The notes below the pieces were generated by a model. That model did no database searches. It worked only from the letters and a program-made list of their open reading frames with translations, and was not told where the DNA came from. A stretch of DNA of 23,840 nt from a virus: IMG/VR virus record IMGVR_UViG_3300020118_000137, positions 1 through 23,840 of that record; one strand, written 5' to 3'. Made by a program: the position numbers and the translations under genes. This document shows, one piece after another, positions 1,424 through 22,992 of this stretch (positions within the stretch are counted from its first letter, which is position 1; each line of letters begins with the position of its first letter).

Positions 1424-4116
1424 ATCTTTGCTCCCGTCCGGCGCGCTGCCTGAACCATCCTGTTCATCACATCATCTACAAGCTGGGGAGTCACGCCATT
1501 AAAGATCGGATTGTTGAGCACGAACGCTGGCCCGGAGCGACCGCCGCCGACTTGCGCCGCTTGAGCCGCCGGTACAACGTATTCTCCCTCGTGAACCATC
1601 GCCAGCATGTCTTGAGGCACCCATCCGCCGGTAGCGAATGCCGCCGCTGGGAGAAATGTTGACTCGATCGCTCCAGCCATCGCCAAACCGGCCTCGACGG
1701 CAAATTCGGGACCTACAAAGGGAATGGCGGCAGTCCAAGCTGCCACAGCAGACCCCGCGACGGCAGCATTACCGGAAATTTCATCGGCATCCAGGGCGGA
1801 GGCGATAGCTTTCGAAGCCAAAGCCGCCGCGAGCTGAGGAGCAATTGTACCCAGAAGGCTCGCTGTGATGCTGCCGACCAATTTCGCAAACGCATCCTCC
1901 AGGGGGAGCAGGAGCCCCTTGAACAGACTAGAAAGAATCGACACGCCGAGCTGCGAGAATACGTCCTTCAGTGTTTGGGCGAATCCCTTCCAATGGATAA
2001 TGTCCGTCGCGATCCCTTGCTCAAGCTGGGTGAACATTGTATGCGCCGCTGCAACGTTCCGGGTAAGAACATCGCCCCACCGCGAACTGGCGTCGGAAAG
2101 CTGCTGTGTTTTCTCTTTTAGGGCGGTAAGCTGAACGATTTCGCGCGTTGCGTCGGCTCCTAATTTTTCCTTGTCCGCAATAAGTTTCTGGAGTTGCTGC
2201 TCTTCGTCTCCATAGCCCTGGTTGAGCGCGCGCAAGGCATTGGCGTTCTTCTGCTCGTCGGCGAGGTGTCTATCATCCATCGCCGAAAGTTTGTTGAGCA
2301 GCGCTTGACGCTTGGAGGCATAGTCAGTCTCGGCCTTACTTCGCTGATCGAGTAGCGCAATCTCGTGATTGATCGCCTGCCTGTCGAGGGCTTCCTCATC
2401 CGCATCCACTTGCTGCGCAATCGCAATCCTTTGCTTGCCAGAGATCAGACCCAGCGCGTAATCGGCGTCGGCCATAGTTCGCCGAAGGTCCAGCATTTTC
2501 GTGCCGTGCGCCAACTCTCCAGCCGCCTCCTCCATCTGCGCCTTGATCTGGTCGTCGTGCATCTTGAGGTTTAACGCTGTCACGTGGGCGGCAACATCCT
2601 GCTGCCCTTTTAATTCTTCATTGAGCCCCTTGATGTGGATCTTGACGCGCTCCTCGAATTGCTTAGCGAGCGTAGCCGTGACGTGCTCTTCCAGTTTGAC
2701 GGTGTGCTCTGCGTTCAGATCTTCTGCTTTTTGCAAATCGGCGGCAAGCTTCGCCGACCCGGTAACCTCTTCGGCGGCGTTTCGGGCGACCAGGGCGCGC
2801 TTCTTGGTGATCGCGTCTTCGGTAATGGCGAGTTCCCGGTCCTCTATCGATTGCAGCCGCGGCAGATTCGCCTGAGCCGAAATCAGGCCCAGCTTCTCCT
2901 CCTCCTCATAGCCCATCTTTTCGATGTTAAGGAGGGATTTCTGATGAGCAGCCGCCGCATCGATCACGATAGTCTGAGTCTTGGCGTAATCCTTGGCCCG
3001 GTCGTCGGCTTCGAGCGCCCACTTCTTGGCTTTCGCATTACTCTCATCCAGTTCGGCGTTGTATTCCTTGCTGCGACCGATAGCCGCCTGCTGAGCCTCC
3101 AGCATATCGAGCAGCGCCTTCTTCTGTGCAATGGCGGCTTGGGTGCTATCGTTCGATATCAGACCAAGGCCCTGCATGTAGTTAATGTCGCTGGCTCCCC
3201 TTTTTGCTTCCGCCTCCAACTGTTTGATTTCTGCCGTAACATCCGCGATTTGCTTCGGGAGAGTGGGATTCGGCGTGCCGACGAATAAGTTCGTCAACAT
3301 TTCAAGTCCCGCGATCACTGCCGGAGCAAACGTCGCCGCCAGACCCTCTTTGAGATGGTCCCAGGCTACTCCGAGCAGCTTACTGGCTTTTTCGGCTTCG
3401 AGCAGCTTGGCCACTCCCTCCTTGTCCAACTGGCCGCCCAACTGCTCAATCGCCGCAGAGAGACCTTCGTAAGTCCGCAGCAACGGTTCCAGTTGCACCG
3501 CGCCCTTGCCCATGACCGTGTGGGCTTCGTTGATGCGCTGGGTAGCGTCGGGGATCTCGGCCAGATGCTTCAGGAGCTTGAGCAGCGCATCGCCGCTGTC
3601 AGCCGCCCAGATGCCCATGTCTTCGAGCGCCGACGCGACCTTCTTGCCTGCGCCGGCCGGATCTTCGAGCGCGTCGGCCAGCCGCATCGAGACGCGCCCC
3701 AGGACGCTCAAGTCCACGCCTGCGACTTGGGAGATCTCGGAGAGCTTCTTGGTGTCCTCGTAACTGAGATTCAATCGGTAGGAGAGGTTCTCGATGGCCT
3801 TGGCCGCAGCGCCTTCCTCCTCCACTAAACCGTAGATCTCGTACCCCACTGCTGCAAAGCCAGCCCCGGCTGCGGCAGCGACCACTCCCAGCGGACCCAT
3901 GGATTCGAGAACAGCCTTTGTAGCCTCTCCCGCCGATTTGAGCGGATGCTCCAGGAAATCGGTGATCTTCTCCCCGAAGCCTTTCAGCGTATCGCCCACA
4001 TCGGACGACAGATTCCCAAAGGCGCTCAGTTGACCCGAGGCTTCGTCGAACTTCTTTTTGAAGTCGGTAGTATCGCCGGATAAACGAACAAAAAGATCAG
4101 CTAAAGAGTCGGCCAT
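1420..4116 (-). CDS. Phage tail tape measure protein
   Basis: This 898-residue protein sets tail length and occupies the tail tube lumen. It starts MADSLADLFVRLSGDTTDFK, the usual tape-measure opening. A hydrophobic Ala/Gly stretch follows at about residues 75-92 (PLGVVAAAAGAGFAAVGYEI). The long central region is charged, coiled-coil-rich and holds three LGLIS-containing repeat units (coding near 3160, 2885 and 2445) followed by Gln/Ala-rich helices. The C-terminus has the family signature GGWVPQDMLAMVHEGEYVVP. The open frame extends upstream to 4230, but those 38 codons lie inside an intergenic repeat copy, so ATG 4116 is chosen as the start. There is no clear Shine-Dalgarno. It follows the gp10-like gene and precedes the tail-tip gene, as expected. 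Confidence 0.93.
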   Translation of the reverse strand: MADSLADLFVRLSGDTTDFKKKFDEASGQLSAFGNLSSDVGDTLKGFGEKITDFLEHPLKSAGEATKAVLESMGPLGVVAAAAGAGFAAVGYEIYGLVEEEGAAAKAIENLSYRLNLSYEDTKKLSEISQVAGVDLSVLGRVSMRLADALEDPAGAGKKVASALEDMGIWAADSGDALLKLLKHLAEIPDATQRINEAHTVMGKGAVQLEPLLRTYEGLSAAIEQLGGQLDKEGVAKLLEAEKASKLLGVAWDHLKEGLAATFAPAVIAGLEMLTNLFVGTPNPTLPKQIADVTAEIKQLEAEAKRGASDINYMQGLGLISNDSTQAAIAQKKALLDMLEAQQAAIGRSKEYNAELDESNAKAKKWALEADDRAKDYAKTQTIVIDAAAAHQKSLLNIEKMGYEEEEKLGLISAQANLPRLQSIEDRELAITEDAITKKRALVARNAAEEVTGSAKLAADLQKAEDLNAEHTVKLEEHVTATLAKQFEERVKIHIKGLNEELKGQQDVAAHVTALNLKMHDDQIKAQMEEAAGELAHGTKMLDLRRTMADADYALGLISGKQRIAIAQQVDADEEALDRQAINHEIALLDQRSKAETDYASKRQALLNKLSAMDDRHLADEQKNANALRALNQGYGDEEQQLQKLIADKEKLGADATREIVQLTALKEKTQQLSDASSRWGDVLTRNVAAAHTMFTQLEQGIATDIIHWKGFAQTLKDVFSQLGVSILSSLFKGLLLPLEDAFAKLVGSITASLLGTIAPQLAAALASKAIASALDADEISGNAAVAGSAVAAWTAAIPFVGPEFAVEAGLAMAGAIESTFLPAAAFATGGWVPQDMLAMVHEGEYVVPAAQAAQVGGGRSGPAFVLNNPIFNGVTPQLVDDVMNRMVQAARRTGAKI

Positions 4117-4123
4117 GTTGAGT

Positions 4124-4269
4124 GATTGGCTACAGGAATTAACGCGATTTCGATATTGTGCGCGCGGTAGAGGGTTGCGCACTAATGCTCGACCGCAGGG
4201 AGCCGGGATCGCAATCGCACGCGCTCGCACCCTTCTGTGAGAGGAGCGCCAGCACCGAATTCAAAAACG
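4124..4269 (+). repeat. Intergenic repeat family, copy A (about 146 bp, full length)
   Basis: The copy runs from a GATTGGCTACAGG end, 8 bases from the tape-measure start codon, to a GAATTCAAAAAC end, about 26 bases from the stop of the gp10-like gene. It shares blocks with the other copies: ACGCGATT, ATATTGTGCGCGCGG, GGGTTGCGCA, TGCTCGACCGC, GAGCCGGGATCGCAATC, CGCGCTCGCACCC. Positions 4158-4163 (GTGCGC) and 4177-4182 (GCGCAC) form a perfect 6-bp stem. Confidence 0.9.
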
Positions 4270-4295
4270 AATAAAACATAACGCTATAAACCTGT

Positions 4296-4736
4296 TTAAG
4301 AGAACTCTCCCCCAATACTCATACTCGTGATATAAGGATCGAGTACATCCCGTATCCCATCCCTCACTATCCGTCGTGCTCCTGCTTTATTGCTTTGTAC
4401 CGCGTCGGAGAAGAACGGATAGGCTGCGGCCGGATGCGGTCCTCCATGGCCGAAGTTGACGAAGTAGGGATAGGGAGAGGCTTTCCCTTTCGACATCACG
4501 AAGGCGATTTTCTTGTCTACTTTGAGATAGGCGGATGGATTGATTCCTTTTCCTTCCATCACGACGATGGCTTGCACGGTTCGGCCGGTGACCGAGTGGA
4601 CATTGGAGATGGCCGCGTCCTTCATCGGCTCCAAGGCTTCTACCAGCACCTGACGGAACTTCTGGGTTGCGCCGATATCTTCCATGAGCTTCAGTTTGGC
4701 TACTGCTTCCTTGAGGCCTTTGGTAGAAAGTTGCAT
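4296..4736 (-). CDS. HK97 gp10-like phage protein (tail/head-tail completion)
   Basis: This 146-residue protein resembles the HK97 gp10 family, found between connector and tail genes in many siphophages and thought to act in tail completion or joining. Visible features are the helical N-terminus (GLKEAVAKLKLM), the central SVTGRTVQAIVV and LKVDKKIAFVMSKGKASPYP segments, and the family-like FVNFGHGGPHPAAAYPFF block at about residues 91-110. The length is normal for the family. The gene is isolated by repeat copies on both sides: copy A lies past its stop and the left part of copy B lies 14 bases upstream of ATG 4736. The position just before the tape measure is slightly later than in HK97, where it precedes the major tail gene. 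Confidence 0.8.
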   Translation of the reverse strand: MQLSTKGLKEAVAKLKLMEDIGATQKFRQVLVEALEPMKDAAISNVHSVTGRTVQAIVVMEGKGINPSAYLKVDKKIAFVMSKGKASPYPYFVNFGHGGPHPAAAYPFFSDAVQSNKAGARRIVRDGIRDVLDPYITSMSIGGEFS

Positions 4737-4750
4737 AAGACAAATAAGTT

Positions 4751-4856
4751 GTTGGCTACCGAGATTTCCGCGATTTTTTGCTTTGTGCGCGCGGTGGACG
4801 GTTGCGCGCGCCGTGCTCGACCGCTGGGAACCGATGAACAGAATCCGAATCCAGAG
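4751..4856 (+). repeat. Intergenic repeat family, copy B, left part
   Basis: This begins GTTGGCTACCGAG next to the gp10-like gene start. It continues through CGCGATT, TTTGTGCGCGCGGTGGACGG, TTGCGCGC and GCTCGACCGCTGGGAACC, then loses similarity. The matching right part is found 700 bases further on (5552-5604), with two small genes between. The terminal GGCTAC supplies the TAG stop of the minus-strand gene 4756-5100. Confidence 0.85.
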
Positions 4857-5100
4857 GCTTAACGTCCACTAGTTCGCGCTGCTTCAATTTCCCTTTGCAG
4901 TGGGCGCAGACCTCGATATTGATTACCTTCGCCGCGCCCTCGATGGAGCTGTTCAGCGCTATGGATTTCAGCGTGAGCACTGGAACTCTACGAACCGTCT
5001 GCGTTAGCTTGAACTCAACAACGCCGCATTGCTCGATATCGTCAACCCAGATGCGCGTTCCAATTGGACACACTTCCAATTTGATTTTCTGGACACTCAT
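4756..5100 (-). CDS. Small phage hypothetical protein, cargo of a split repeat
   Basis: This 114-residue ORF begins MSVQKIKLEVCPIGTRIWVD. Residues ~18-55 (IWVDDIEQCGVVEF, VRRVPVLTLKSIALN, SSIEG) form a beta-rich segment like small phage proteins that describe a binding or assembly surface. A CAHC motif at about residues 67-70 could be half of a metal site. The last ~25 residues (from HRFPAVEHGAR on) are encoded by the left part of repeat copy B and end at a TAG inside the repeat terminus, so the C-terminus is probably not ancestral. It is divergent from the plus-strand gene at 5221. I do not recognise the family, and the product name is only descriptive. Confidence 0.6.
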   Translation of the reverse strand: MSVQKIKLEVCPIGTRIWVDDIEQCGVVEFKLTQTVRRVPVLTLKSIALNSSIEGAAKVINIEVCAHCKGKLKQRELVDVKPLDSDSVHRFPAVEHGARNRPPRAQSKKSRKSR

Positions 5101-5220
5101 ACCGAAATCAACCTACTCCTTCTCCAGCAGACCTCAAGACAAAACGAACGCGCCCACAGATCGTACCAGCAGACACTAAACTGTAAGATCCGAAAACCCC
5201 ACAAATGATACTTCGATATA

Positions 5221-5541
5221 ATGCGAATCATGGAAATGAACGATGTACTCTCGGCAATGCGGATACTTTGCAAACATCCCCTTTTCGACGCCTGTGATAA
5301 CTCGCTTCGCGCCGAGCCGGGACAGAAAATGAAGTGGTTCGGTGTTCCCATGGGAAGTGGTGATCCACTGGAAAATGCCGTGTTCGGTCTTTGGAAACAC
5401 GCTTCCGAAGACCAATTGCGCAAGGGATGGAAAGTGATTCGAGAAGAAGGCTTACTGCCTAGCCTAATCGATGAGCGCGGCAATCGATCTCGCTATGGTG
5501 GCTGGCGAGAAACCCTGCCGCTTTTCAAGTCCAAAGCGTAA
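5221..5541 (+). CDS. Hypothetical protein, plus-strand moron inside split repeat
   Basis: This 106-residue soluble protein is encoded against the direction of the phage structural genes. The open frame starts ATG 5221, but ATG 5230 and ATG 5236 (MNDVLSAMRILCKHPLF) are equally possible and none has a strong Shine-Dalgarno. Features seen: an N-terminal helix, a C-x5-FDAC pair of cysteines (C17, C24), a KMKWFGVPMGSGDP loop, and a helical LRKGWKVIREEGLLPSLIDERG segment. The composition is that of a folded protein. It lies between the two halves of repeat copy B and ends about 11 bases before the right half. No family recognised. A TATAAT sequence at 5217-5222 overlaps the first start codon but lacks a good -35. 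Confidence 0.6.
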   Translation: MRIMEMNDVLSAMRILCKHPLFDACDNSLRAEPGQKMKWFGVPMGSGDPLENAVFGLWKHASEDQLRKGWKVIREEGLLPSLIDERGNRSRYGGWRETLPLFKSKA

Positions 5542-5551
5542 CCGACAACCC

Positions 5552-5604
5552 GCACGCGCTAGCACCCGCCGTAACGGGATCGGCCAATGGCGAATTCAAA
5601 CACT
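5552..5604 (+). repeat. Intergenic repeat family, copy B, right part
   Basis: The sequence GCACGCGCTAGCACCC, then ACGGGATCGGCCAATGG, CGAATTCAAACAC matches the right third of the full-length copy at 14997-15142. The outer TA overlaps the TAG stop (5603-5605) of the frameshift-extension ORF. It completes the left part at 4751-4856 across a ~700-base cargo. Confidence 0.85.
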
Positions 5605-5965
5605 AAACCAGCCTTGGGCCTCCTACTCTCTGGTTATATGAATCAAACTGTATCAGGAGAACATCCTCAGCAGAAAGCGAGGGCGCTTCATCCTCTGATG
5701 TCAACCTTTCCGGCTTCTTTGTTTTGGGCACTAACGCCGGAATGAAATCCCCCAGCGTGGTTTGTTTTGCTTCCTCTTTCAAATGGCAGTTGAGATAGAT
5801 CGAGGAGATCTGCGCGATCGGAACGAAGGCGTACTGATACCGATTCACCAGCGCGGAGAATTGAACCGGGTGCAGGTCCCAGAACTCCTGCTCGCTCAGC
5901 CCTAAGTCGTAGCGGCCAATTGCCCAGATTGTGTTCCAGTCTGGACACTCGGAGGGTCCGAAGGA
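5603..5965 (-). CDS. Tail assembly chaperone, frameshift extension (GT-like)
   Basis: This minus frame is open from just after a TGA at 5966-5968 to TAG 5603. It carries no good initiation signal of its own apart from GTG 5848. It encodes CPDWNTIWAIGRYDLGLSEQEFWDLHP..., which resembles the C-terminal T part of lambda G/GT-type chaperones (short helical domain with a xxEFWxL motif). The frame is -1 relative to the upstream chaperone gene (5902-6291) and overlaps its last ~60 bases, so it is most likely expressed as a G-T fusion of about 230 residues by programmed -1 frameshifting. GT proteins recruit the major tail protein to the tape measure. A candidate slip point is GGACCCT at 5953-5959; it is not a textbook heptamer. 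Confidence 0.75.
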   Translation of the reverse strand, partial: SFGPSECPDWNTIWAIGRYDLGLSEQEFWDLHPVQFSALVNRYQYAFVPIAQISSIYLNCHLKEEAKQTTLGDFIPALVPKTKKPERLTSEDEAPSLSAEDVLLIQFDSYNQRVGGPRLV

Positions 5966-6729: not shown

Positions 6730-6784
6730 GTTAGTGATGCTCCTTTTTCCGCTTTAGCTCAGCGGCAGCTTGAGTGATTTCAGG

Positions 6785-6930
6785 GTTTGAATACAGGCGT
6801 GAAACGAAATTTCTTATCGAGTGCGAGCGCGAGCGTCCACGCCTCTCGGCTCCCAGCGGTCGAGCCGAAACGCGCAACCCGCTTCCGCGCGCAGAACATC
6901 GAAACGGGCGCGGGAGCCGGTAGCCAACAA
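6785..6930 (-). repeat. Intergenic repeat family, copy C (inverted orientation)
   Basis: This is the reverse complement orientation relative to copies A, D and G. It starts GTTTGAATACAGGC and ends GGTAGCCAACAAC, 1-3 bases from the TAG stop of gene 6931-7356. Shared blocks include TGCGAGCGCGAGCG, GGCTCCCAGCGGTCGAGC, GCGCAACC and CCGCGCGCAG. Both flanking genes are on the minus strand, so orientation is not tied to transcription. Confidence 0.88.
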
Positions 6931-7356
6931 CTAAGGCAACTGGTACGTCATCTTGTATGAGGAGTAGGCGTCAAAGACGATAGTGTCCGCTGTTAAGGCT
7001 ACTTTCTTGTCTGTCTGCCTTTCGATGTGCAGATCGACTACGGTGATACCGCCAGCTCCGCCCATCACGCCCTTGAATCCTTGCAGGCTCGCATAGATCG
7101 CCGCCTGGAGCTGCTCGGCGACTTCGTAATCTCGCGACCAGGAATGCAGATCAACCATCGACACCGCTTGCTGGCCGCTCAGATCGTACTCGAAGCTGAC
7201 ATCGAACTCGTAGGTCAGGGTTACTTCCCCCGCTGGCGGCAGGGCTACTTCCGGATAGATGCGATCAGCAACCAGGGCTAGAATCGTGGCGTCGGAAGTG
7301 AGCCGCGCCTTGAGCGATTGCGAGCGCGTCAAGACTGGAGGAGGAGGCGCAGGCAT
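6931..7356 (-). CDS. Tail completion / tail terminator-like protein (DUF3168-type)
   Basis: This 141-residue protein resembles DUF3168 / tail-terminator proteins, which cap the head-proximal end of the tail tube. Seen: an N-terminal helix LTRSQSLKARLTSDATILAL, VADRIYPEVALPPAGEVTLTYE, a VSMVDLHSWSRDYEVAEQLQAAIYASL strand-helix unit (DxxSW typical of the family) and a C-terminal strand DAYSSYKMTYQLP. ATG 7356 directly abuts the stop codon (TAA 7359-7357) of the preceding joining protein, suggesting translational coupling. A repeat copy separates it from the major tail gene. The family call is by pattern. Confidence 0.8.
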   Translation of the reverse strand: MPAPPPPVLTRSQSLKARLTSDATILALVADRIYPEVALPPAGEVTLTYEFDVSFEYDLSGQQAVSMVDLHSWSRDYEVAEQLQAAIYASLQGFKGVMGGAGGITVVDLHIERQTDKKVALTADTIVFDAYSSYKMTYQLP

Positions 7357-7773
7357 TTAGTCCTTGATCTCTTCCAGGAAGATTTCTACAAAACGATCCC
7401 GCCTTGACACCTTGGGAATATCCATAATCAAAAACGCTCGGTATCCAGACCTGGTGAGAGATGCTGTATCGGAAGCGATCAGATTATCCGGCACGACCCC
7501 TAGCAGCATGCGGCATTTTTCGTTGACAGCTTTAACGTGATCGTAGTAGGCCAGGCACAAATACAAGTTCTTCGAAATCGCCCAATCCGCCATCAGGGTT
7601 TCCGCACCAGGACGAACACGAGGCGCGACATTGCCCTTGCACTGGATAATCAGCTCCCAACTTTCCCCGTATCCCCCGGAGGCGTTTCGCGGGGCAGAGT
7701 TCCGCTGAAACGTCAATCGATCAGTAAAGCTGCGAGGGTCGGTTAACGCTAAGGATCGGAGGACTTGATTCAT
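7357..7773 (-). CDS. Head-tail joining protein (SPP1 gp16 / HK97 gp7-type)
   Basis: This 138-residue protein begins MNQVLRSLALTDPRSFTDRL. The segment LTFQRNSAPRNASGGYGESW, then ELIIQCKGNVAPRVRPGAET, is the recognisable core of the Phage_H_T_join family (R-x-T-x-Q-R-x(n)-G-G-x3-S/T-W). The C-terminus has SGYRAFLIMDIPKVSRRDRF. This protein plugs the connector and provides the tail docking surface. It sits upstream of the tail-completion gene, and repeat copy D lies just upstream of ATG 7773. The expected connector partner is 5 kb away, at 13068, because the secreted-protein cassette has been inserted between them. Confidence 0.82.
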   Translation of the reverse strand: MNQVLRSLALTDPRSFTDRLTFQRNSAPRNASGGYGESWELIIQCKGNVAPRVRPGAETLMADWAISKNLYLCLAYYDHVKAVNEKCRMLLGVVPDNLIASDTASLTRSGYRAFLIMDIPKVSRRDRFVEIFLEEIKD

Positions 7774-7785
7774 CAGAAGGACTAG

Positions 7786-7933
7786 GTGTTGGCTACAGGC
7801 TGTTACGCGATTCGGATATTGTGCGCGCGGGAAATGGTTGCGCGGGTCTTACTCGACCGCTGGGGAAACCACGCATTGCAGCCCACGAGCGGACCTCGCA
7901 TCCCAAGAGGCGCGACCGACGTAATTCAAACAC
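7786..7933 (+). repeat. Intergenic repeat family, copy D (full length)
   Basis: The copy runs from GTGTTGGCTACAGGCTGTTACGCG to GTAATTCAAACAC. Its left half is well conserved (GATATTGTGCGCGCGG, TGGTTGCGCGGG, TCGACCGCTGGGG) and its right half is more diverged. The left end lies 12 bases upstream of the joining-protein start. Confidence 0.88.
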
Positions 7934-8032: not shown

Positions 8033-8341
8033 CTAATAATCACTCAGAATGTTCCCGATTGTGCCCGCCGTGGGTTGCTGGATGGCCCAGGTGATTGCGT
8101 TCGGCGCGGCGTTGAGGCTCCCCACGTAGCCATTGGTTGAGCCGACTGCGGGCGTCACGTCGGCTGCGTAGGTTGATCCGCCACCAGTACACGACACGTG
8201 AATAGTTGGTCGAGCAGGGTTCGAGAATGTACAGGAGAGCGTACCTGCCGTGGCCGTTACGTTCTGGGTGACATTGATTGTGCCGGGTGTCTGAGCGCTG
8301 GTGATTGAGAGGGCTGCGAAGAGTAGAACTAATAGTCTCAT
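8033..8341 (-). CDS. Small secreted protein with Sec signal peptide
   Basis: This 102-residue protein has a clear signal peptide, MRLLVLLFAALSITSAQ (predicted cleavage after SA, mature start at Gln). It is followed by a short Thr/Asn/Gly-rich beta domain with two cysteines (residues ~37 and ~51: GTLSCTFSNP, HVSCTGGGS). ATG 8341 directly abuts the TAA of the 64-residue ORF, so it is probably translationally coupled. It is the last gene of the secreted-protein cassette. The protein may once have been longer, because an orphan tail motif follows in another frame. No family recognised; it resembles small adhesive or fibre-accessory proteins rather than an enzyme. Confidence 0.65.
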   Translation of the reverse strand: MRLLVLLFAALSITSAQTPGTINVTQNVTATAGTLSCTFSNPARPTIHVSCTGGGSTYAADVTPAVGSTNGYVGSLNAAPNAITWAIQQPTAGTIGNILSDY

Positions 8342-8536
8342 TTAATTTCTCCCTGGAGAATTAACCCTGCCGTTCTTGGCAAAGGTTGGATTAACCCATC
8401 TATCAAACCATGAACCCTCTAATGAAATATCTCCGTCGAAAAGCATCTCTGGCCGAAAGTTCGTTAGAATTCTTGCAGCCGCCTCTTTCTTGGAGTTTGC
8501 CTCCTGATCCCTTTTAGCGCGTATGGTGTCTTTCAT
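8342..8536 (-). CDS. Small hypothetical protein in the secreted-protein cassette
   Basis: This is a 64-residue charged, mainly helical protein (MKDTIRAKRDQEANSKKEAA then ARILTNFRPEMLFDGD). AAGGTGAGG a few bases upstream of ATG 8536 is a good ribosome binding site, and the gene fits between its neighbours with gaps of 4 and 0 bases. It is the only member of this cassette without a signal peptide, so it would stay in the cytoplasm. Function unknown. Confidence 0.6.
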   Translation of the reverse strand: MKDTIRAKRDQEANSKKEAAARILTNFRPEMLFDGDISLEGSWFDRWVNPTFAKNGRVNSPGRN

Positions 8537-8540
8537 TGCC

Positions 8541-9692
8541 TCACCTTATCACTCCAGTGCTTACCACGCCGCCAGACAGGACGGAGCCGCCGCCACTTGA
8601 GCCTAGTAAAAGTGTGAAGACATCTGCTGTAACGTTGTTCAGCGCGACATGCTTATTGAGAGATGGTACATAAGCCCATCGGCCAAATGTGCCGGTAGCC
8701 ACTGTTGCCGACGGCCCGCCAGTATAAGTAAGCGTGGTGCAGATTTTCGTTCCAGGATCGTACTCTATCACCGTATTCCCAGTCCCGGAATAATAGATCA
8801 ATGTCTTACGGTTGGAATCGTAATCCAGTCCCGGATAATCAGTTCCGTACATGGCACCGCATCCCGTAGTGAGCGAAGTTATGTTAGTCGCCGCGTAACT
8901 GGCCGATCCCGTAAGGTCAACCGAATAAATTCCAGACGCCGCGCCGCCGTAGGTATTCTGACCAGCGCAAATATACAACTTTCTGACGGGATCAATCGCG
9001 CACGAAGCCGTGGACGGTATAAGAGTACCATTGGTAGATCCCGCCGACAACTTAATCCAGGTATCCGTGCCGACCGTGTATCTGTAGAGGTTGTAGGCAT
9101 TTGGTCCGGCGCAAATGACCGATTCCGGTGATGGATTTGCCGTATCCAAGGCGCACATATAACCGCCCGTCGAGCCTGCTGATGGACCATCGGTTTTTCG
9201 AGTCCAGGTAAGCGCCGATAAATCAAAGAGCCATGTGGCGATGGTGCTTGATCCCCCAGGCGCGATGATTCCCCCATAGGAAAACATTTTATTGGCAACC
9301 GGCAGGAACACAAGATCCTGATACGTATGGCGAGAAACGGGCGTGCCATCGGCATTGCTTTCTCCGCTTGTGGCGTAAATGCTGGGATCGGTCAAGCGCG
9401 TGACTGTCACAGGAGACAGGGATAGGTTGACGGAGTAGACTTCATTGCCGTTGTAATCGCCATGTCCACCGCCCCACAGGATAAGCCTAGTTCCTGTTGT
9501 ATCCATTACCGCCCCGCCCCATGCGTCAACAACTGCATGAGCAAAGGCGTTGTAATCGTAGGTAACACCGGCGCAATAAGAGGGTGGTGAAGTGCCGGTA
9601 CACGTTGCTGGAGCAACAGATTGTAAATGGGTATTGGATAGATCCGCCCATTGGGCGGAAAGTGGAAGCGTTAGTAAAATAAAAAATAGCAT
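8541..9692 (-). CDS. Secreted kelch-like beta-propeller protein
   Basis: This 383-residue protein has the signal peptide MLFFILLTLPLSAQ and a mature start at about residue 15. The body shows repeated beta-propeller blades: VVDAWGGAVMDTTGTRLILWGGGHGDYNGNEVY near residues 55-90, then NKMFSYGGI, STIATWLFDLSALTWTR, RYTVGTDTWIKLSAG, RKLYICAGQ and KTLIYYSGTGNTVIEYD. The W-GGGHGDY-NEVY motif is typical of bacterial kelch/galactose-oxidase-like propellers. The C-terminus is a Gly/Ser/Val tail (GGGSVLSGGVVSTGVIR) that recurs as an orphan at 7934. TTG 9698 is an alternative start forming a TTGA overlap with the upstream gene; ATG 9692 is preferred. It may bind surface glycans; an enzymatic role is not supported. 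Confidence 0.75.
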   Translation of the reverse strand: MLFFILLTLPLSAQWADLSNTHLQSVAPATCTGTSPPSYCAGVTYDYNAFAHAVVDAWGGAVMDTTGTRLILWGGGHGDYNGNEVYSVNLSLSPVTVTRLTDPSIYATSGESNADGTPVSRHTYQDLVFLPVANKMFSYGGIIAPGGSSTIATWLFDLSALTWTRKTDGPSAGSTGGYMCALDTANPSPESVICAGPNAYNLYRYTVGTDTWIKLSAGSTNGTLIPSTASCAIDPVRKLYICAGQNTYGGAASGIYSVDLTGSASYAATNITSLTTGCGAMYGTDYPGLDYDSNRKTLIYYSGTGNTVIEYDPGTKICTTLTYTGGPSATVATGTFGRWAYVPSLNKHVALNNVTADVFTLLLGSSGGGSVLSGGVVSTGVIR

Positions 9693-9694
9693 TT

Positions 9695-10432
9695 TCAAAA
9701 CGCGCTGGAATGCGCGGGAGTCAATGATCCAGATGCAGCAGCGGTGGCTAAGTAAGCGGCATGGGTAACGATCCCGTTAAAAGCATTATTCAGCTTCCAC
9801 ACGGTTGTCAATGCATTCGTCGATGTATCCAGTCCCCAGTACAATACCGATAGTAGGCCGGTCGTAGTTCCACTGCCTCTCGCCGCTTGTGCATAGATAA
9901 AACTAGGGTTAGTACAAGCGGTAGAGGCTGCTTCGTTATTGCACGGAAGAAATGTAGCATCGGTAGCGGTTGGCTCGAAACCCCCTGCAATAAAAAGGTC
10001 TCCTGTGGCAGTTGGTGTGATAGCTGTGAGTGCCTGAGGTGTCGCTGACTGGATAGCTCCGATATCTGCCCCATCCGTAGCACCTGTTACTCCAGAGAAG
10101 CCAGCCACGGCGATTACGCAATTGGCGGGAGATGTAAACGTGTGACTATTGGTTGCCGTAGCTGTTTGGACGAAGTATAACCTAGCAAAATTGCTACCTA
10201 CTCCACGTTCTGTCCGCGCCGTCCATGTATTAGAGCTACTGTCGGTTGGGGCAGTGGTATGAACGCCACTGCCGCATGTCTCAAAAAGATGAAATTGGGT
10301 TGCGCCGGAACACGTTAGTGCAGAAGTGGTAGCTCCGGCTGTCGTTGTCGCGGCATTGCACCCGGAAACTGGCGCTTGTGCGTGAAGCGCAACCGCAAAA
10401 AGCAGCCCAAATAGGAGCCTTATTGATCGCAT
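9695..10432 (-). CDS. Secreted lectin-like beta-sandwich protein
   Basis: This 245-residue protein has the signal peptide [19 protein letters not shown]. The mature part is Thr/Ala/Ser-rich with six or more cysteines. It shows a jelly-roll-like order: [91 protein letters not shown]. This arrangement (strand, N-S-H-x-F-T, A-x-[12 protein letters not shown]) occurs in concanavalin/laminin-G-like sandwiches on environmental phage fibres and secreted proteins. ATG 10432 overlaps the end of the collagen-like gene by 13 bases and has GGAG at about 8 bases. The likely role is carbohydrate or receptor binding. Confidence 0.7.
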
Positions 10433-12555
10433 TGCAGCACTCCAGTAATAGACTTGGTGGTAGCTACCGCCGTGACCGCCATAGCAATCATGTCATTTGC
10501 CGAAACTGCCGTGCTGGTAAAGTCAGAAACGGTCGTGGAGTGGATTGCCGTTCCGCTGGCAATGGAAACACCTGACGTATTGATTGAGTTTCCACTGGTT
10601 GGGATCGCCGTGCCGGTGGCCACCTTCCAAAACTTGACCGTGATCGTCCCTGTGTCACCGGGGGAAAAGGCAAGATTGTACGCGCTGATGGTGCAGGCAT
10701 ATGGGACTGTGAGAGTTTGGGAAACACTCGATGTGGTAAGCGCGGAACTGTTCGCTGGATCGCCGATGGAGAAGGAGAGGCCGCGGGCGCGAGTGGCCGC
10801 CGGTAAGTCGGTCTGCACCACTGATGCGCACGTTCCTCTTGCCGAGGAATCAATCGACCGCGTGAACTGGTTGGTGCAGGTGCTGCCTGGTGTGTTGCCG
10901 TTGACTTTCGCTACCACGGCAGCCGTGCTGATACCGCTCAGATCCCCGCCCAATTGGTTGACATGTGACCGGCCCCACAATGCGCTCGCCTGATCTACTA
11001 CTTTGCTGGCCGCGTACTGCGTCGTGAGCGAGTAGGAAGTAGCCCCGTCAATCGTGTCCGATCCCGCCCTTGTGGGAGTGCAGGCGTTGGCGCTGGAGTC
11101 GGTCTTCTTAATCGAGATTTCCCTGCCCGAGCCGGTCGCGGCCGGTAAGTTGATCGTCACCGCCCCCGCTGTCGCGTCGCACGATAGATACGTGTCGGCG
11201 GCAAGCACTGTGTAGGGAGAGGAAGCGTTGTTGATTGCCGTTACCGTATCGTGTACTTGCTTAACAGTGACCGCTCCGGTGTTTGCCATCGAAGCGTCTC
11301 CAGAGACCGCTACATCCGTAGGCACGTTTGAGACGTTGCCGACAAAGACGTGAGCGCTGTTCAAGGTCTCGACTGCGAGTAATTGAGCCGAAGTGCAAAC
11401 CGCGTCGGCCACTCCAGCGCCTCCCGCGCAGCGAGGGTTGCCAGCCGAAAGCTCCTTCGACAGTTGCGAAATCACACCGGAGCTATTCTTGCAGCGATAA
11501 GTTAGCAGCGTCGAGTCCCAGACGCAGTACTCAAATCCAGCGGCAGGGTTTCCCGATGGCATCGCGCTCTCGACCAGGATTGACGGACCGCCGTCTGGGG
11601 TCGCGTTTGCGATTGGATTCGCATTCGTGCCGTCCCAGAAGAAACTCTGCGTCGTACATACGTTGAGAACAGGAGAAATGGTTGCCGCCTTCGAGAAACC
11701 TGTGGGCCAGGCGAACGTGCGGCCCCCGGTTCCGTCCTGGCAGATTTTGAAGTTGTAAATTTGCCCGGCTGCCGAAGAAGCCAGCGAGCTTGTCGTAGCT
11801 CCAGTGAGGGTAACAGACCACGAGTTCACGGTATTGCTTGACGCTGTAAAGGCTGCTACGCCTCCAGAGGGAGTAACCGCCGTGTACTGCCCTGCTCCAC
11901 CAGACCCCGATCCAGAGATAGTGCAATCAGTGGAAGCCGCGCCAGAATTGTCAGCGCACGAAACTCCCGCGCCGACGAAGTTCAGCTTGGCTCGTACCGT
12001 GAGATTGCTGCCTTCGTCCTGGACTTGGGAGATTGCGCCGTTTGTTCCGGCCGCCCCGGTGGCTCCTGTTGCGCCAGCCGCCCCAGCCGCTCCGGTTGCT
12101 CCGGTCGCCCCGGTAGATCCCGCCGCCCCGGCTGCTCCGGTGGCTCCTGTCGCGCCGGTAGCGCCCACGGCTCCGGTTGCCCCCGTCGCCCCTGCGCCGC
12201 CGTTGGAATTGATGACGCAGCCGATATTGGAGGAGCTGGCGAAGGTGAGGGTGGCCGAAGTTGTGCTGCGCGGGCTGATATAGGGAGTCGCCAGCGCGAG
12301 AGGCGTCAGAGGCCCGGTTGGCCCATTGCTGTCTGTGCCTGTGCCTGTCCAGCATTGCGCTAATAGCGTATTGAGAGTAGCCGATGTCAGGCCGAGGCTG
12401 GTGATATCGCAGACGACGGAGGTAGCAGGGCCGGCTGCGGTGCATTTGATGTTGGCTGCGCCGACACCTGTGCCGCTGCCTCCCCCTGGAGGAAAAATAC
12501 CAGATTGGGCTAAGAGCGTAGAGGAAGCGAGGATCAGACAGCAGAGAGTTTTCAT
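10420..12555 (-). CDS. Collagen-like tail fibre / receptor-binding protein with signal peptide
   Basis: This 711-residue protein begins with a signal peptide ([17 protein letters not shown]). After a Cys-containing N-terminal domain, residues ~119-172 form about 18 Gly-X-Y triplets, mostly GAT and GAA, a collagen-like triple-helix segment. Next come a beta domain ([40 protein letters not shown]), then around residues 440-530 the common fibre module ending a trimeric shaft ([60 protein letters not shown]), and a C-terminal sandwich ([33 protein letters not shown]). The domain set is that of a phage fibre, but a Sec signal is unusual for a virion protein. A weak AGAGAA site precedes ATG 12555. 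It leads the cassette with the lectin-like and kelch-like genes. Confidence 0.82.
12040..12201. repeat. Short tandem repeats encoding collagen Gly-X-Y triplets
   Basis: The DNA is built of degenerate 9-base units (GCTCCGGTT / GCTCCTGTT / GCCCCGGTA types on the plus strand) that encode GAT/GAA triplets on the minus strand. Such arrays expand and contract by slippage, so fibre length may vary between isolates. Confidence 0.85.
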
Positions 12556-12569
12556 AAATTCTCTTTTTT

Positions 12570-12708
12570 GTTGAATACAGGCTGGATGCTGGGTTGCGAT
12601 GGGTGCGAGCGCGTGCCGATTATTTTGGTCAGCGAACCGCTGGAAACAGGAGCGCCGGTCCCCGCGCTCCCCGCTGCACAGAATCGCGCGGAGTCTCGGT
12701 AGCCAAAA
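12570..12708 (-). repeat. Intergenic repeat family, copy E (inverted, diverged)
   Basis: It starts GTTGAATACAGGCTGG and ends TCGGTAGCC, 3-4 bases from the stop of gene 12712-13056. Recognisable blocks are GGGTGCGAGCGCG, AACCGCTGGAAACAG and AATCGCGCGGAG. The middle is more diverged than in other copies. It separates the collagen-like gene from the short secreted gene. Confidence 0.75.
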
Positions 12709-12711
12709 TCC

Positions 12712-13056
12712 TCAGTATTGAATGGTTCCCACTACTGCGCTAGCTACCGTAGAAGACCAGGTAAAGCCACCCGGAGCCGGCGTCGAGTTGAAATTCCAAG
12801 ACACAATGGATCCCGCCGATCCAGATGCTGCTAGAGGAGCCGGACCCCACAGCGAACACGGACCGCCGCCACAGTTGGTAGACCTGTCCTTGATGACCAC
12901 CGTGGCTATCGAGCCCGAGGCGTTATTCAAATGCATGTATTTCAGCGTGGCCGTCGTCGCCGAAACCACCGTATCGGTTGTAGGAAGATAGGCCGGGGTG
13001 GTGGCGATCTGAGCGAAGGCCAGGACTGCGATCAGCAGAAGTAGAAAGAGTTTCAT
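12712..13056 (-). CDS. Small secreted protein with Sec signal peptide
   Basis: Starting at ATG 13056 this is 114 residues: signal peptide MKLFLLLLIAVLAFAQ, then a short beta domain (TVVSATTATLKYMHLNNASG, SIATVVIKDRSTNC, GGGPCSLWGPAPL, SIVSWNFNSTPAPGGFTWSS). C43 and C48 (mature region, approximate numbering) flank a Gly loop. The N-acetyl-like WNFNSTPAPGGF segment looks like a strand edge of a small sandwich. ATG 13071 is possible and would overlap the connector stop as ATGA, but AAGGAA lies five to six bases before ATG 13056 and gives a cleaner signal peptide. It is the first gene of the secreted cassette in transcription order. Function unknown. Confidence 0.65.
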   Translation of the reverse strand: MKLFLLLLIAVLAFAQIATTPAYLPTTDTVVSATTATLKYMHLNNASGSIATVVIKDRSTNCGGGPCSLWGPAPLAASGSAGSIVSWNFNSTPAPGGFTWSSTVASAVVGTIQY

Positions 13057-13067: not shown

Positions 13068-13736
13068 TCATCTCACCCGGGGAACCGCTCCATAGCGCAT
13101 CAGCACTTGGGCCGCATAGGGAATGCCGTCCTGGTTGCCTCTTTCGTCGTCCCCGATGTACCAGGACTTGATGAGCACTTTCATTCCGGTGAGTAATCTT
13201 GCTCCGGCGTTGTTCCAGAAGGCGTCGGAGGGCTTCAGTCCTGCGGTGAAGCGAATCAGAACCGCGCTCGAGGGCCAGGGCGTGAAGACCGGCCAGAAAT
13301 TGTTCCAGGTCTGCGAAATCACACCGGGCCGCTTCAACTTATCGACGATGTAATCGGTATTCTCAGCCAGCGCATGGAGAGCACCATCGCTGTCCTTGTA
13401 CTGCACCAGATCGACCGAGATAAGATTGTCGCGCAAGGGCATTTCCAGGCCGTAGAAGTAGTCAAGCGACATATCCCACTGTTTCACCATCAAATCGCAG
13501 CCCTGCTCGATTTCAAACACTTCCCGCGCTGCCGAGATGAAGGTCAGCAGCATCTGGTCGTCGTCGGTGACATCGGGCGTGGCCGTCAGCGAGAGAAAGT
13601 CTTTCACGTCCGTCAGGGTCAAGGGTTCGTCAAAGCTCTGCGCCGGACTGGTTTCGGTAAGCCGGATGCTTCCCCGCGCGTGGGTGTAGGTGCCTACTTG
13701 TCCGTAGCCGTCGTAAGCTAATCCGCCTGGAAACAT
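13068..13736 (-). CDS. Head-tail connector protein (HK97 gp6 / phiE125 gp8-like)
   Basis: This 222-residue protein resembles the gp6/gp8 connector family, whose ring binds below the portal. The start of the conserved region is PLTLTDVKDFLSLTATPDVT, then DDDQMLLTFISAAREVFEIEQG (the family's D-x2-L-x2-I-x2-A-R-x2-E), DLMVKQWDMSLDYF, a strand-rich section NLISVDLVQYKDSDGALHAL, AVLIRFTAGL, and the C-terminal helix LLTGMKVLIKSWYIGDD. The N-terminal ~35 residues are extra compared with the minimal family. In most phages this gene follows the capsid gene directly; here about 5.7 kb of accessory genes separate them. No strong Shine-Dalgarno; the start is by length and codon content. Confidence 0.85.
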   Translation of the reverse strand: MFPGGLAYDGYGQVGTYTHARGSIRLTETSPAQSFDEPLTLTDVKDFLSLTATPDVTDDDQMLLTFISAAREVFEIEQGCDLMVKQWDMSLDYFYGLEMPLRDNLISVDLVQYKDSDGALHALAENTDYIVDKLKRPGVISQTWNNFWPVFTPWPSSAVLIRFTAGLKPSDAFWNNAGARLLTGMKVLIKSWYIGDDERGNQDGIPYAAQVLMRYGAVPRVR

Positions 13737-14133: not shown

Positions 14134-14991
14134 TCAGGCCGCTTCCATTCCAAAGCTATCGAGTCCTGCTGCTAGTCCTGGATGCGAATCTAAAATCTTC
14201 AGGCATTCCGCTTCCTGCCATGGTTCGGCGTCCACATCCAGATACTTCATCCATGGCAAGTAGGGCGCCCACCAGGATTCCGGAATATCGGCCAGATTCT
14301 TACCGCCATAGACCGCGGGCTGGTAGCGCTTCCGGACCATCTCCACCGGCTCCCGGTCCGGCCAGCGCAGCCGCTCGGTCAACTGGTAGAGATATTGCTT
14401 CGCCCGCAACCTTCGCTCGGAGACAAATTGCAAGTGCATCATGCCCCCCGAGCGGTTGACCGGCTGGAACGGAATGAAGGGCCGCCCCATTGGCTGCCGG
14501 TGATGGAAGTCGTAACCCGCGCGCGCCGCCCAATGACAGTTCGGCTCGTCCACAAACGCCATGCATACGGTGGCGGTTCCCCACACTCCGTCGGCGTGCA
14601 CCTGGTGGATCGAACCCTTGAGGCATTGCCAGGGGAGCTGCATGGTCGCGTGCGGCAGGAGCATGCGCACATGCTCCCGGATCGATCCCAGCAGATTGCC
14701 CGTCAGGACTTCGTCGGCGTCCACCAGCACGATATGGGTCGCGTTGCGGCCGCGCGCGAATTCTAAGAGCCTCTGGCGATGCGCCATTTCCGCCCACACC
14801 GGATCGCTCTCGTTGATGACGAAGACCCGGTCTCGGTGCTCTTTCCAAACCTCCTCGATGACTTCCAAGGTCTTGTCGGTCGAGGCGTGATTCAAGACGA
14901 TCAATTCATCGCACCATTGAAGGACTGCTCGTGCTGAGAGACCTAATATCCAGTCTTCATTCCGGGCTGGCATGGTACAGACTAGCTTCAT
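14134..14991 (-). CDS. Family 2 glycosyltransferase
   Basis: This 285-residue protein begins MKLVCTMPARNEDWILGLSA. It has the GT-A fold signatures of family 2: the N-terminal strand with PARNE, LIVLNHASTDKTLEVIEEVW (the D-x-S-x-D-x-T nucleotide-sugar region) and HIVLVDADEVL with the DxD metal site at about residues 88-90. A C-terminal part rich in Trp/Arg (RLRWPDREPVEMVRKRYQP) follows. The frame is open back to 15087, but those 32 codons lie in repeat copy G, so ATG 14991 is the start. It is the last gene of the glycosylation island, separated from the methyltransferase only by the repeat. It probably modifies host surface glycan or virion proteins; the sugar is unknown. Confidence 0.85.
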   Translation of the reverse strand: MKLVCTMPARNEDWILGLSARAVLQWCDELIVLNHASTDKTLEVIEEVWKEHRDRVFVINESDPVWAEMAHRQRLLEFARGRNATHIVLVDADEVLTGNLLGSIREHVRMLLPHATMQLPWQCLKGSIHQVHADGVWGTATVCMAFVDEPNCHWAARAGYDFHHRQPMGRPFIPFQPVNRSGGMMHLQFVSERRLRAKQYLYQLTERLRWPDREPVEMVRKRYQPAVYGGKNLADIPESWWAPYLPWMKYLDVDAEPWQEAECLKILDSHPGLAAGLDSFGMEAA

Positions 14992-14996
14992 TGGCG

Positions 14997-15142
14997 GTTG
15001 GCTACCGGGAGTTACGCGATTGGGAATTTCTGCGCGCGGTGGATGGTTGCGCAGCTCATGCTCGACCGCTGGGAGCCGGGATCGCAATCAGCATGCGCTC
15101 GCACCCATCGAAAGCGGACCGGCCAATGATGAATTCAAACAC
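14997..15142 (+). repeat. Intergenic repeat family, copy G (best-preserved copy)
   Basis: The copy runs from GTTGGCTACCGGGAG (5 bases from the glycosyltransferase start) to GATGAATTCAAACAC (12 bases from the methyltransferase stop). Stem arms CTGCGC (15030-15035) and GCGCAG (15049-15054) pair perfectly. It serves as the reference for the family: GCTCGACCGCTGGGAGCC, GGGATCGCAATC, ATGCGCTCGCACCCATCG, CGGACCGGCCAATGATG. Confidence 0.92.
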
Positions 15143-15154
15143 TACGCCCAAAAG

Positions 15155-15757
15155 TCATCGCGCTAAGATCACATTGGTTTCGTTGGTATGAACTGCTTTA
15201 TATCCCCACTGCTGCGCCTGTTGCAGCAAAGACTCTAGCTTGTCGTCGTATTCCACAATCACTACTTTGGGACGCTGCTCTGTAGACAGCAACGCTACCG
15301 CTACTTCTACGCTGGTGCCTTCCGTGTCGATCGAGGCATAGTCGATGCTGGCGTTCTCAAAGAATTGCGCCAGCAACTGCTCGACCGTGAGTGTCGGAAC
15401 CCAGAGCTTGCCGTAATAGCCGCAGGAGGCGTCGGCCCAGCGCTTCTTATGCGCCGGATCGGCAGTCGAGAGCGCATTCTGGGTGATATCGAACTCCGTC
15501 ACACGCTGCGGACCGGCGGTAATCGCCGCCTGGATCAAGCGCACCGTATCCTGATAGCCGTACTCGATGAGCAGGCCGTGCATCGGCATGGGCGAAAACT
15601 CGACCAGCGTGGCGCGCCAGCCTCGTTCGATAAACGCCCGCGAATTGGAGAGGTCTTTGACCGACCACGCGCCGATATCGAGAAGCGTACCGATTTGATC
15701 GCCAAAGATCGATTCGACGATTCGGTCTTCTCCGTACTGGGAGTAGCTACTCGACAT
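15155..15757 (-). CDS. FkbM-family methyltransferase
   Basis: This 200-residue protein fits the FkbM-type SAM-dependent O-methyltransferases, often found in polysaccharide clusters. Motifs: SSSYSQYGEDRIVESIFG at the N-terminus (SQ-x-GED is typical), the SAM-binding GTLLDIGAWS at about residues 23-32, ATLVEFSPMP (acidic end of strand 2), and the late TLTVEQLLAQ then DYASIDTEGTSVEVAVALL, which is the FkbM D-x-E-G-x-E-like motif with Thr/Ser changes. Its start overlaps the preceding glycosyltransferase by 11 bases, so it is translated in the same operon. The likely role is methylating a sugar added by the linked transferases. Confidence 0.85.
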   Translation of the reverse strand: MSSSYSQYGEDRIVESIFGDQIGTLLDIGAWSVKDLSNSRAFIERGWRATLVEFSPMPMHGLLIEYGYQDTVRLIQAAITAGPQRVTEFDITQNALSTADPAHKKRWADASCGYYGKLWVPTLTVEQLLAQFFENASIDYASIDTEGTSVEVAVALLSTEQRPKVVIVEYDDKLESLLQQAQQWGYKAVHTNETNVILAR

Positions 15758-16571
15758 GGGCGCGAGAACTGGGTCCCTCCACCTGGGCTACAAACTGATG
15801 ATTGGTGGCGTAGCGGGAGCCGCTCAAATCGTTGCGGTCCCCGGCGCAGTACTCCTGCGTGAACAGTTGCGGGTAGAGATCCCAGTCGCTCGGGTCCGCC
15901 AGCCCGAAAGCATCTGCTTCCCGATGCAGCGGCAGGCCGTACTTGTGCGCCAGCAGGGAAAAGACCGATTGATCGCCGCGGTTCTCGAGAAAGCCTTCGT
16001 TCTCGGCAGCAAGGACGCTGGGATCGCGCGTGGGGCACAGCGGATTCAAGACGTAGGCGAGCCACTCCGTTAAGAACTGCTCGATCGACCAGCGGCCTTT
16101 CTGAAAGAGCATGAAGCGCGCCGTCGCATGGACCGTATCCGGGGAGATCGCGCCAAGCGGATCAATCACCCGGAAACAGTCCCGCTTGACGTACTGGCGG
16201 TTGGTGCAGCCGCAGGCGGCGAACAGAAAGAATCCATTCTCCCGCGCGCAGTAGTCGAACAGCCGCGAGAAATCGGCGATCGGATAGGTGTCGGCGTCGG
16301 TCCACAGGAGCACGTCGCCCGCCTTCAGCCGCGCCAGCGCGTGCTGGATGATAAACGGCTTCCAGCAGTACCAGCCGTAGCCGTAACGCGCGCCATTCGA
16401 GCCGGGATGATCCCAGGCCCAGCGGTTCAGCTTCCGGAAAGGCTGGCGCTCCAGCCAGGCGTCGTCGTAAATCCAGCATTCGTCAGCGCCCAGCGGGACC
16501 GCTTGCTCGGAGATATTCTTCAGGGTGGCGTCATAAGCCCGCCCGCCGAAGGTGACGTATACCTTTTTCAT
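15747..16571 (-). CDS. Glycosyltransferase-like protein (DxD, capsular polysaccharide type)
   Basis: This 274-residue protein begins MKKVYVTFGGRAYDATLKNI. It resembles the GT-A proteins with the pattern GYGWYCWKPFIIQHALARLK then GDVLLWTDADTYP (a DxD at about residues 91-93), close to many bacterial and phage sequences with GYWxWKPYII...GDxLLYxDAG. A later section (ENEGFLENRGDQSVFSLLAHKYGLP) carries the conserved D-Q-S-x-F acceptor-side motif. ATG 16571 overlaps the stop of the upstream gene as ATGA, implying coupled translation. Substrates unknown. Confidence 0.75.
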   Translation of the reverse strand: MKKVYVTFGGRAYDATLKNISEQAVPLGADECWIYDDAWLERQPFRKLNRWAWDHPGSNGARYGYGWYCWKPFIIQHALARLKAGDVLLWTDADTYPIADFSRLFDYCARENGFFLFAACGCTNRQYVKRDCFRVIDPLGAISPDTVHATARFMLFQKGRWSIEQFLTEWLAYVLNPLCPTRDPSVLAAENEGFLENRGDQSVFSLLAHKYGLPLHREADAFGLADPSDWDLYPQLFTQEYCAGDRNDLSGSRYATNHQFVAQVEGPSSRAHVE

Positions 16572-17332
16572 CGGCCCGATCCCGCTCCGACGCTCGCCAG
16601 CGGTTCGCAGCCCGGAAATCCGGCCGCTTTCCGCTGCTCAAATAGCGCCTTGTACTTGTCCCAGTGAGCCGGGGAATTGGCTTCGACCAGATGCGCCGGA
16701 ACAGGCCGATATACCGCGTTCGATTCGACCGCATCCGACTCGCGCTGGAAGTGATGGTGCAGGTGTATCAGGTCCGGACGCTGCCAGAGGACGCCCAGCT
16801 TCAGCGCCACGTTTTGCAGCTCTTCGTCCACGAACATGTGCCGGTACTCGGGCCAGAACGGACCCTGTCCGCCGTTCATCCGCTGGCAGAACTCGCGGCC
16901 CATCCAGGGGCTGCCGCAGATCCGGTCGATACAGCCGCCGGCGAAGCGGTCCCCGGTGGGCTGCATCACGCCGAATGTTCCATGCGTTGTATCCCACGCC
17001 ACCGAGATCGCATCTTCACTGCGTTGCGTCGTGCCAAAGTGCTCGTCACACTCCAGCGCGATCTGTTCGGCCGAGTGGTTCAGATCGGGTTCGGTATCGT
17101 CACCGCCTGCGACACACCACTCGCATTCCGGGTCCATCGCCAGCACAGTTTTCACAAGGTGATTGACCGCTTGCGCGTACCCTGGATATGGGGCCACCGT
17201 CACCCAATCAGGGATGAATCCCACGCCGCCTTCCTGATCTCTCCAGAGCGCTACTCGATAACCTCTCCGCTTCCAGAGCGCAACCGTTCCGCCATCGGGA
17301 CGGGCCGAGGGAATCGCAAACCAGACGCTCAC
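16568..17332 (-). CDS. Glycosyltransferase-like protein
   Basis: This 254-residue protein starts at GTG 17332, giving a 4-base GTGA overlap with the preceding gene. The longer frame back to 17398 would lie inside that gene. It begins (V)SVWFAIPSARPDGGTVALW, the N-terminal strand of a GT-A-like fold. CEWCVAGGDDTEPD at about residues 70-83 gives a D-D metal/nucleotide site after a hydrophobic strand. A later VDEELQNVALKLGVLWQRPD then HLHHHF resembles the C-terminal His motif that completes the metal site in several family 2-like transferases. It is part of the four-gene, translationally coupled operon. Confidence 0.7.
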   Translation of the reverse strand: MSVWFAIPSARPDGGTVALWKRRGYRVALWRDQEGGVGFIPDWVTVAPYPGYAQAVNHLVKTVLAMDPECEWCVAGGDDTEPDLNHSAEQIALECDEHFGTTQRSEDAISVAWDTTHGTFGVMQPTGDRFAGGCIDRICGSPWMGREFCQRMNGGQGPFWPEYRHMFVDEELQNVALKLGVLWQRPDLIHLHHHFQRESDAVESNAVYRPVPAHLVEANSPAHWDKYKALFEQRKAAGFPGCEPLASVGAGSGR

Positions 17333-17982: not shown

Positions 17983-17987
17983 GATTA

Positions 17988-19373: not shown

Positions 19374-19420
19374 GGCCGAAACATGGTGCCACAGGACAAT
19401 TGCAACCGTCAACTCAATCT

Positions 19421-22986: not shown

Positions 22987-22992
22987 TACGAG

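Follow-up and report, generated by a model that had tools for sequence, protein, structure and literature searches.

A cassette of predicted exported tail-adhesin relatives recurs in the structural gene clusters of environmental phages

Main

Five genes set among the structural genes of a virus record encode a cassette of proteins with tail-adhesin domains that are very probably exported out of the cytoplasm. Judged from sequence, the cassette is a family and not a one-off: over 30 further environmental phages carry related blocks. On the accepted view tailed phages assemble entirely in the cytoplasm, and the search for their receptor-binding proteins looks among proteins without a signal peptide. 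Against that view, an exported block of tail-fibre-like proteins comes as a surprise. The explanation we prefer, tentatively, is that the tail adhesins are exported for oxidative folding and join virions at or after lysis. A shade more tentatively still, widespread uncultured tailed phages may build their virions in two compartments, with adhesins attached only at or after lysis.

Results

The window, the whole stretch of DNA analysed here, is a virus record of 23.8 kb whose phage genes lie on the minus strand; the contig stops short of the distal tail and fibre genes. Its gene set is that of an HK97-like structural cluster. In transcription order it holds a terminase fragment, portal, protease, major head protein (phrog_10) and a protein with HNH-associated repeats, then glycosyltransferase and FkbM-type genes, the head-tail adaptor and the cassette, followed by a head-completion protein (PF05521), tail genes and the tape measure. 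The first-pass annotation had placed the cassette between a connector and a head-tail joining gene, and the flanks do match a head-tail adaptor (phrog_442, 37% identical to the connector of a relative, L005) and Phage_HCP (Table 1).

Several other features of the window were recorded. The glycosyltransferase (PF00535, PF13704) and FkbM methyltransferase-type genes occupy 14134-17982, between the major head protein and the connector; L005 has glycosyltransferase-like genes too (3187-5323, by eye), upstream of its terminase. In the protein at 18444-19412, HNH repeats of the homing-endonuclease-associated kind (PF18780) occur together with a weak match of ROS/MUCR type. A dispersed element of ~155 bp (GTGTTTGAATTCAGG ... 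GGGTGCGAGCGCGTGC ... GGCTCCCAGCGGTCGAGCA ... GCGCAACC ... CCGCGCGCA ... CGCG ... GTAGCCAAC) stands, whole or partial, at ~10 gene boundaries in both orientations, some near the cassette edges, and no copy was seen in the other viral loci compared. Host assignment through this repeat gave a single exact match, which fell within a coding gene in a Hyphomicrobiales MAG and which we judged to be chance.

Table 1 Features of the cassette and its surroundings in the window. Cys counts refer to mature proteins.
Feature	Position	Strand	Description
Head-completion protein, downstream flank	7357..7773	-	Phage_HCP PF05521, E 2.5e-5
p5, small protein, predicted exported	8033..8341	-	Signal peptide MRLLVLLFAALSITSA^Q; 2 Cys
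64-aa ORF within cassette	8342..8536	-	No signal peptide
Probable kelch beta-propeller, predicted exported	8541..9698	-	Signal peptide, A^Q; TTG start (ATG at 9692); 8 Cys
p3, beta-sandwich adhesin, predicted exported	9695..10432	-	Signal peptide with A^Q site; 6 Cys; homologues in 16 other loci
Fibre stop/p3 start overlap	10420..10432	-	13 nt; conserved in relatives
Collagen-type fibre, 711 aa, predicted exported	10420..12555	-	Collagen PF01391; phrog_366 tail fiber; signal peptide; 18 Cys
Fibre C-terminal jelly-roll domain with conserved Cys pair	10423..10800	-	34-row alignment A5; model pLDDT 89
Fibre collagen G-X-Y repeats, residues 119-174	12034..12201	-	PF01391; repeat family D1
p1, small protein, predicted exported	12712..13056	-	Signal peptide MKLFLLLLIAVLAFA^Q; 2 Cys
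Head-tail adaptor (connector), upstream flank	13068..13736	-	phrog_442, E 3e-8
~155-bp element copies	4125-4280, 4734-4834, 5546-5605, 6730-6945, 7774-7869, 12556-12711, 14981-15150, 17983-18107, 22988-23078, 23250-23304		

Signal peptides were scored with a rule-based predictor. Its calibration set was 125 genes of E. coli K-12, with locations assigned from general knowledge; 22/22 exported, 1/81 cytosolic and 5/22 membrane proteins passed. Of the 33 ORFs in the window the rule selected just five and rejected the remaining 28. These are the same five genes, all on the minus strand, to which basic-hydrophobic signal peptides had been ascribed from reading alone. Each has the Sec hallmarks at its N-terminus: the n-region is basic, the core hydrophobic and the cleavage site A^Q, the last placed by reading in p3, where the script cut three residues earlier. 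A plausible Shine-Dalgarno sequence precedes every cassette start except that of the kelch gene. The starts proposed earlier could be kept with two reservations: the kelch signal peptide needs the TTG at 9698, which puts a lysine in the n-region that the ATG at 9692 leaves out, and p1 may begin at 13071, overlapping the connector stop, instead of at 13056, which has the better Shine-Dalgarno sequence. The reading that these hydrophobic N-termini are chance or anchoring segments and no signal peptides gains something from the rule-based nature of the prediction. We consider it scarcely credible against a calibrated rule, the even-cysteine signature of the exported proteins, the replacement of the signal by a Tat-like one in L033 and the recurrence of signal peptides in unrelated phages.

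The mature parts of all five proteins have even numbers of cysteines (Table 1). Counted on proteins with at least two cysteines, an even number occurs in 83/92 exported proteins (76/85 after clustering at 60% identity) as against 139/266 (52%) of those not exported. After clustering the difference has p ~1e-14, a value to be taken as a guide since related sequences are non-independent. Cysteine content is likewise higher, at ~1.9% in exported cassette proteins versus 1.2% for the rest. A cysteine pair is present in all exported fibre domains and in none of four non-exported lineages: L035, L059 and L061 lack the second cysteine, and L056 has it displaced. The second cysteine of L060 lies just outside its aligned piece. 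The even counts and the conserved pair add evidence for export that does not depend on the signal peptides, and together they suggest that the cassette proteins fold with disulfide bonds. Cysteine parity could also serve as a simple genome-level marker for finding further exported cassettes.

The domains themselves point to adhesins. PF01391 confirms the collagen repeats that had been read in the fibre, and the match of the fibre to phrog_366 (1.4e-8) lies mostly over this collagen part. The fibre-tip model is closest in structure to the tail fibre of Agrobacterium phage 7-7-1 (9rkv, Z 9.1), followed by a baseplate protein from a Klebsiella phage (Z 8.6) and by YomS (Z 8.5); unrelated jelly rolls score close behind, so that we claim the fold alone. 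Its top matches in BFVD are phage proteins of the collagen-repeat and tropism-determinant type. The p3 model (pLDDT 75) is modestly similar to XepA, an exported protein of PBSX (Z 7.0), and to the baseplate tripod of Tuc2009 (Z 6.3). Profiles and model thus assign p3 to a beta-sandwich tail-adhesin domain, and the label "lectin-like" given to it by the first-pass annotation finds no support in Pfam. The kelch fold was partly borne out: the gene scores below the Pfam kelch cut-off (E 1.4e-8, 34.8 bits versus 50) and agrees with kelch relatives that are ~30-35% identical to it; a homologue, L010, passes at 62.6. In profile searches p1 has no family match, and no relative of it was found among the viral loci; a Pfam search gave no family above cut-off for p5.

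On sequence or modelled-fold homology, then, the cassette domains are phage tail adhesins. Their setting is that of tail fibres too, within a late structural cluster, between the phrog_442 adaptor and Phage_HCP here and behind tail or baseplate genes in relatives. Known tail fibres are, however, made in the cytoplasm without signal peptides, and these proteins combine five signal peptides with the even-cysteine signature. Having tail-adhesin homology but predicted export, the cassette would work like a tail fibre and be homologous to one without being an ordinary member of the class. Fibre-type domains on very probably exported proteins, as first proposed, thus stand; the position in a connector module is particular to this phage.

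Relatives were collected through the fibre. The fibres of the window and of L012 have a common C-terminal domain (31% identity, BLAST E 6e-8), and with both as queries this domain was found in 40 viral contigs. In ~33 of the 40 the fibre ORF has a signal peptide (29 once near-copies are removed); this count includes L031, L034 and L043, which the rule turned down for charged residues around the cleavage site and which we admitted on inspection. Genes in relatives were called as longest ORFs, which leaves some starts uncertain, and the records may be incomplete. The gene after the fibre overlaps the fibre stop in most exported-fibre loci, usually by 13 nt and otherwise by 10 or 19, and usually has a signal peptide itself. 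It is a p3 homologue in 16 loci (iterated HMM) and a beta-helix or other adhesin-like protein, by eye, elsewhere. In L033 the p3 homologue carries a Tat-like (twin-arginine-like) signal, TRRKFIKRGGLWVAAASSLIVVPELKA, which indicates that this N-terminus serves export and not one particular sequence function. At the C-terminus of many exported cassette proteins a short linker leads into a small basic/Gly tail whose end is hydrophobic (downstream genes of L025, L027, L029, L031, L032, L037, L039, L042 and L043; window 8541 and 9695; L012 9695), perhaps a shared docking or sorting tag.

The same families also occur without predicted export. In L035 the fibre tip (60% identity) is borne by a short fibre with no signal peptide. 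L005, whose portal and connector are related to those of the window, encodes the p3 domain in two places, inside a tail protein and in a tail-region gene, again with no signal peptide. In L015 a kelch gene is followed by a p3-domain protein, neither with a signal peptide. In a tail protein of the L005 phage (L103:1908-3482), an adhesin domain of the p3 type forms an insertion close to the N-terminus (HMM E 5e-10).

Kelch relatives were found in 13 viral loci, with a signal peptide in L010, L011 (accepted by eye), L012, L016, L020 and L057 and without one in L013, L014, L015, L019 and L021. L012 has six consecutive signal-peptide genes (a collagen fibre, a 401-aa protein, a metallophosphoesterase, a kelch plus beta-helix protein and two others), with a DUF2612/phrog_587 tail gene upstream. 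Signal-peptide status does not cluster on the weakly resolved kelch tree. A single capture of a signal-peptide kelch gene gained no support, as the tree, itself poorly resolved, needs ~4 label changes, the same as shuffled labels. Close behind the exported kelch gene of L010, near its major head protein gene, lies a second signal-peptide gene (L010:12788-13222) with a single FnIII-type domain by eye.

This distribution bears on another of the original suggestions, wholesale capture of host genes, which we took to mean secreted genes acquired by this one phage and with no phage function. Kelch and collagen domains are common in bacteria, and the common A^Q cleavage sites look host-adapted. On the viral records compared, we nevertheless regard such capture as very unlikely: relatives of the fibre, the third gene and the kelch gene recur in the structural clusters of dozens of unrelated phages, several of them as tail-region proteins without signal peptides, and the overlap between the fibre and the next gene is conserved. 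Use of the same adhesin families with and without export argues against chance capture.

Within the structural clusters of relatives, cassettes lie mostly behind tail-tip or baseplate genes: behind tail(-tip) proteins phrog_4271/phrog_1101 in L038, L041 and L048 and behind baseplate genes in L044 and L012. The cassette of L027 follows DNA-ejection genes and that of L060 the portal gene. The connector position in the window is therefore unusual and yet not the sole one away from tail genes. Relatives found by portal alignment had no signal-peptide cassette within the connector region examined, and the major capsid protein as bait gave no matches.

A coating or modification of the living host surface by a prophage-expressed cassette, which the first-pass annotation had raised as lysogenic conversion, seems to us unlikely. 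Glycosyltransferase genes adjoin the connector and cassette in the window, and a tyrosine integrase is present in 15/38 related records, a count that covers the tyrosine type alone in records that may be incomplete. On the other side, the cassette is embedded among late structural genes on the same strand, and most related records, though possibly incomplete, lack a tyrosine integrase.

Discussion

The reading we favour, with export for oxidative folding, would run as follows. The cassette would encode an adhesin set, consisting of a collagen fibre with a jelly-roll tip, a beta-sandwich adhesin, a kelch propeller and two small domains, made together with the late genes. The adhesins would pass through Sec (once Tat) and become disulfide-bonded outside the cytoplasm, with the capsid and tail built inside it. 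At cell lysis the folded adhesins may then meet finished particles and dock as receptor-binding parts. The purpose of export would be the oxidative folding of disulfide-stabilised adhesins, and virion assembly would span two compartments.

That folded adhesins join virions at or after lysis, in line with one option of the first-pass annotation (joining after export), is possible, though we hold it somewhat short of probable; we infer it from gene location and from the lack of any other copy of the tip domain. The cassettes lie behind tail-tip, baseplate or DNA-ejection genes, the usual neighbourhood of receptor-binding genes. Several observations count against it. No docking domain was identified on the cassette proteins. 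Short fibre-like proteins without signal peptides are encoded upstream in L027, L032, L038, L044 and L012 and could be the real virion fibres. The window cassette sits in the connector module, outside the usual fibre slot, with the distal tail genes beyond the contig.

The main rival, a serious if somewhat doubtful possibility, is that the exported adhesins never join virions. Released late into the periplasm and medium, they would act there on their own: they might, for example, cover receptors on cell debris and on infected cells, or help progeny to spread by binding and cutting the extracellular matrix. Signal peptides and the disulfide signature suit this role too. The fibre tip domain could occupy a receptor, and exported cassette genes include beta-helix, kelch and metallophosphoesterase proteins. 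XepA, the best structural match of p3, sets a precedent as a late prophage protein that is exported and is not part of mature particles (PMC6834076), and in this it counts against virion joining. Free action is harder to square with cassettes placed mostly behind tail-tip and baseplate genes and not at scattered sites. A decoy of the virion's own tip, moreover, predicts a second, non-exported tip copy per record, and the tip is single in all 33 records with a match, so no record pairs an exported with a non-exported tip.

If dozens of environmental phages export adhesins, there is either an extracytoplasmic step in virion assembly or a release of soluble adhesins and enzymes during lysis. Either outcome changes how host range is predicted from metagenomes.

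The arrangement had been put forward as possibly undescribed, and it is absent from the literature and cultured-phage records that we searched. The full-text literature, with few subscription journals covered, contained no description of an exported tail-adhesin cassette. Cultured phages had no relatives of the kelch protein or p3, one partial match to the whole fibre (a Microcystis phage, one domain) and weak Synechococcus phage matches only to the tip domain; plasmids had no kelch relatives.

Among known systems, collagen-type phage tail fibres (phrog_366; 9rkv) are like the cassette fibre in collagen repeats, jelly-roll tip fold and structural-cluster location. They are made in the cytoplasm without a signal peptide, whereas the cassette fibre is predicted to be exported and is rich in paired cysteines. 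T5 Llp, which masks receptors on debris and infected cells, and Cor of phi80 and N15 are, like the cassette products, phage-encoded exported proteins that may affect receptors; they are single small proteins, whereas the cassette is a multi-gene set of tail-fibre relatives. In filamentous phages, pIII and pVIII are virion proteins with signal peptides that cross the inner membrane, a likeness to the putative virion proteins described here, but those phages assemble at the membrane and the cassette phages are tailed, with capsids filled in the cytoplasm. XepA and YomS, from the Bacillus subtilis prophages PBSX and SPbeta, are late beta-sandwich proteins that the p3 and fibre-tip models resemble, and XepA is exported during development (PMC6834076). 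The resemblance (p3 to XepA, Z 7.0 on a pLDDT 75 model; fibre tip to YomS, Z 8.5) is one of common beta-sandwich fold only, and XepA differs from the cassette in being a singly encoded lysis-cassette protein not found in particles (PMC6834076). What is new, as far as sequence can tell, is that tail-adhesin modules known in kind are here very probably exported.
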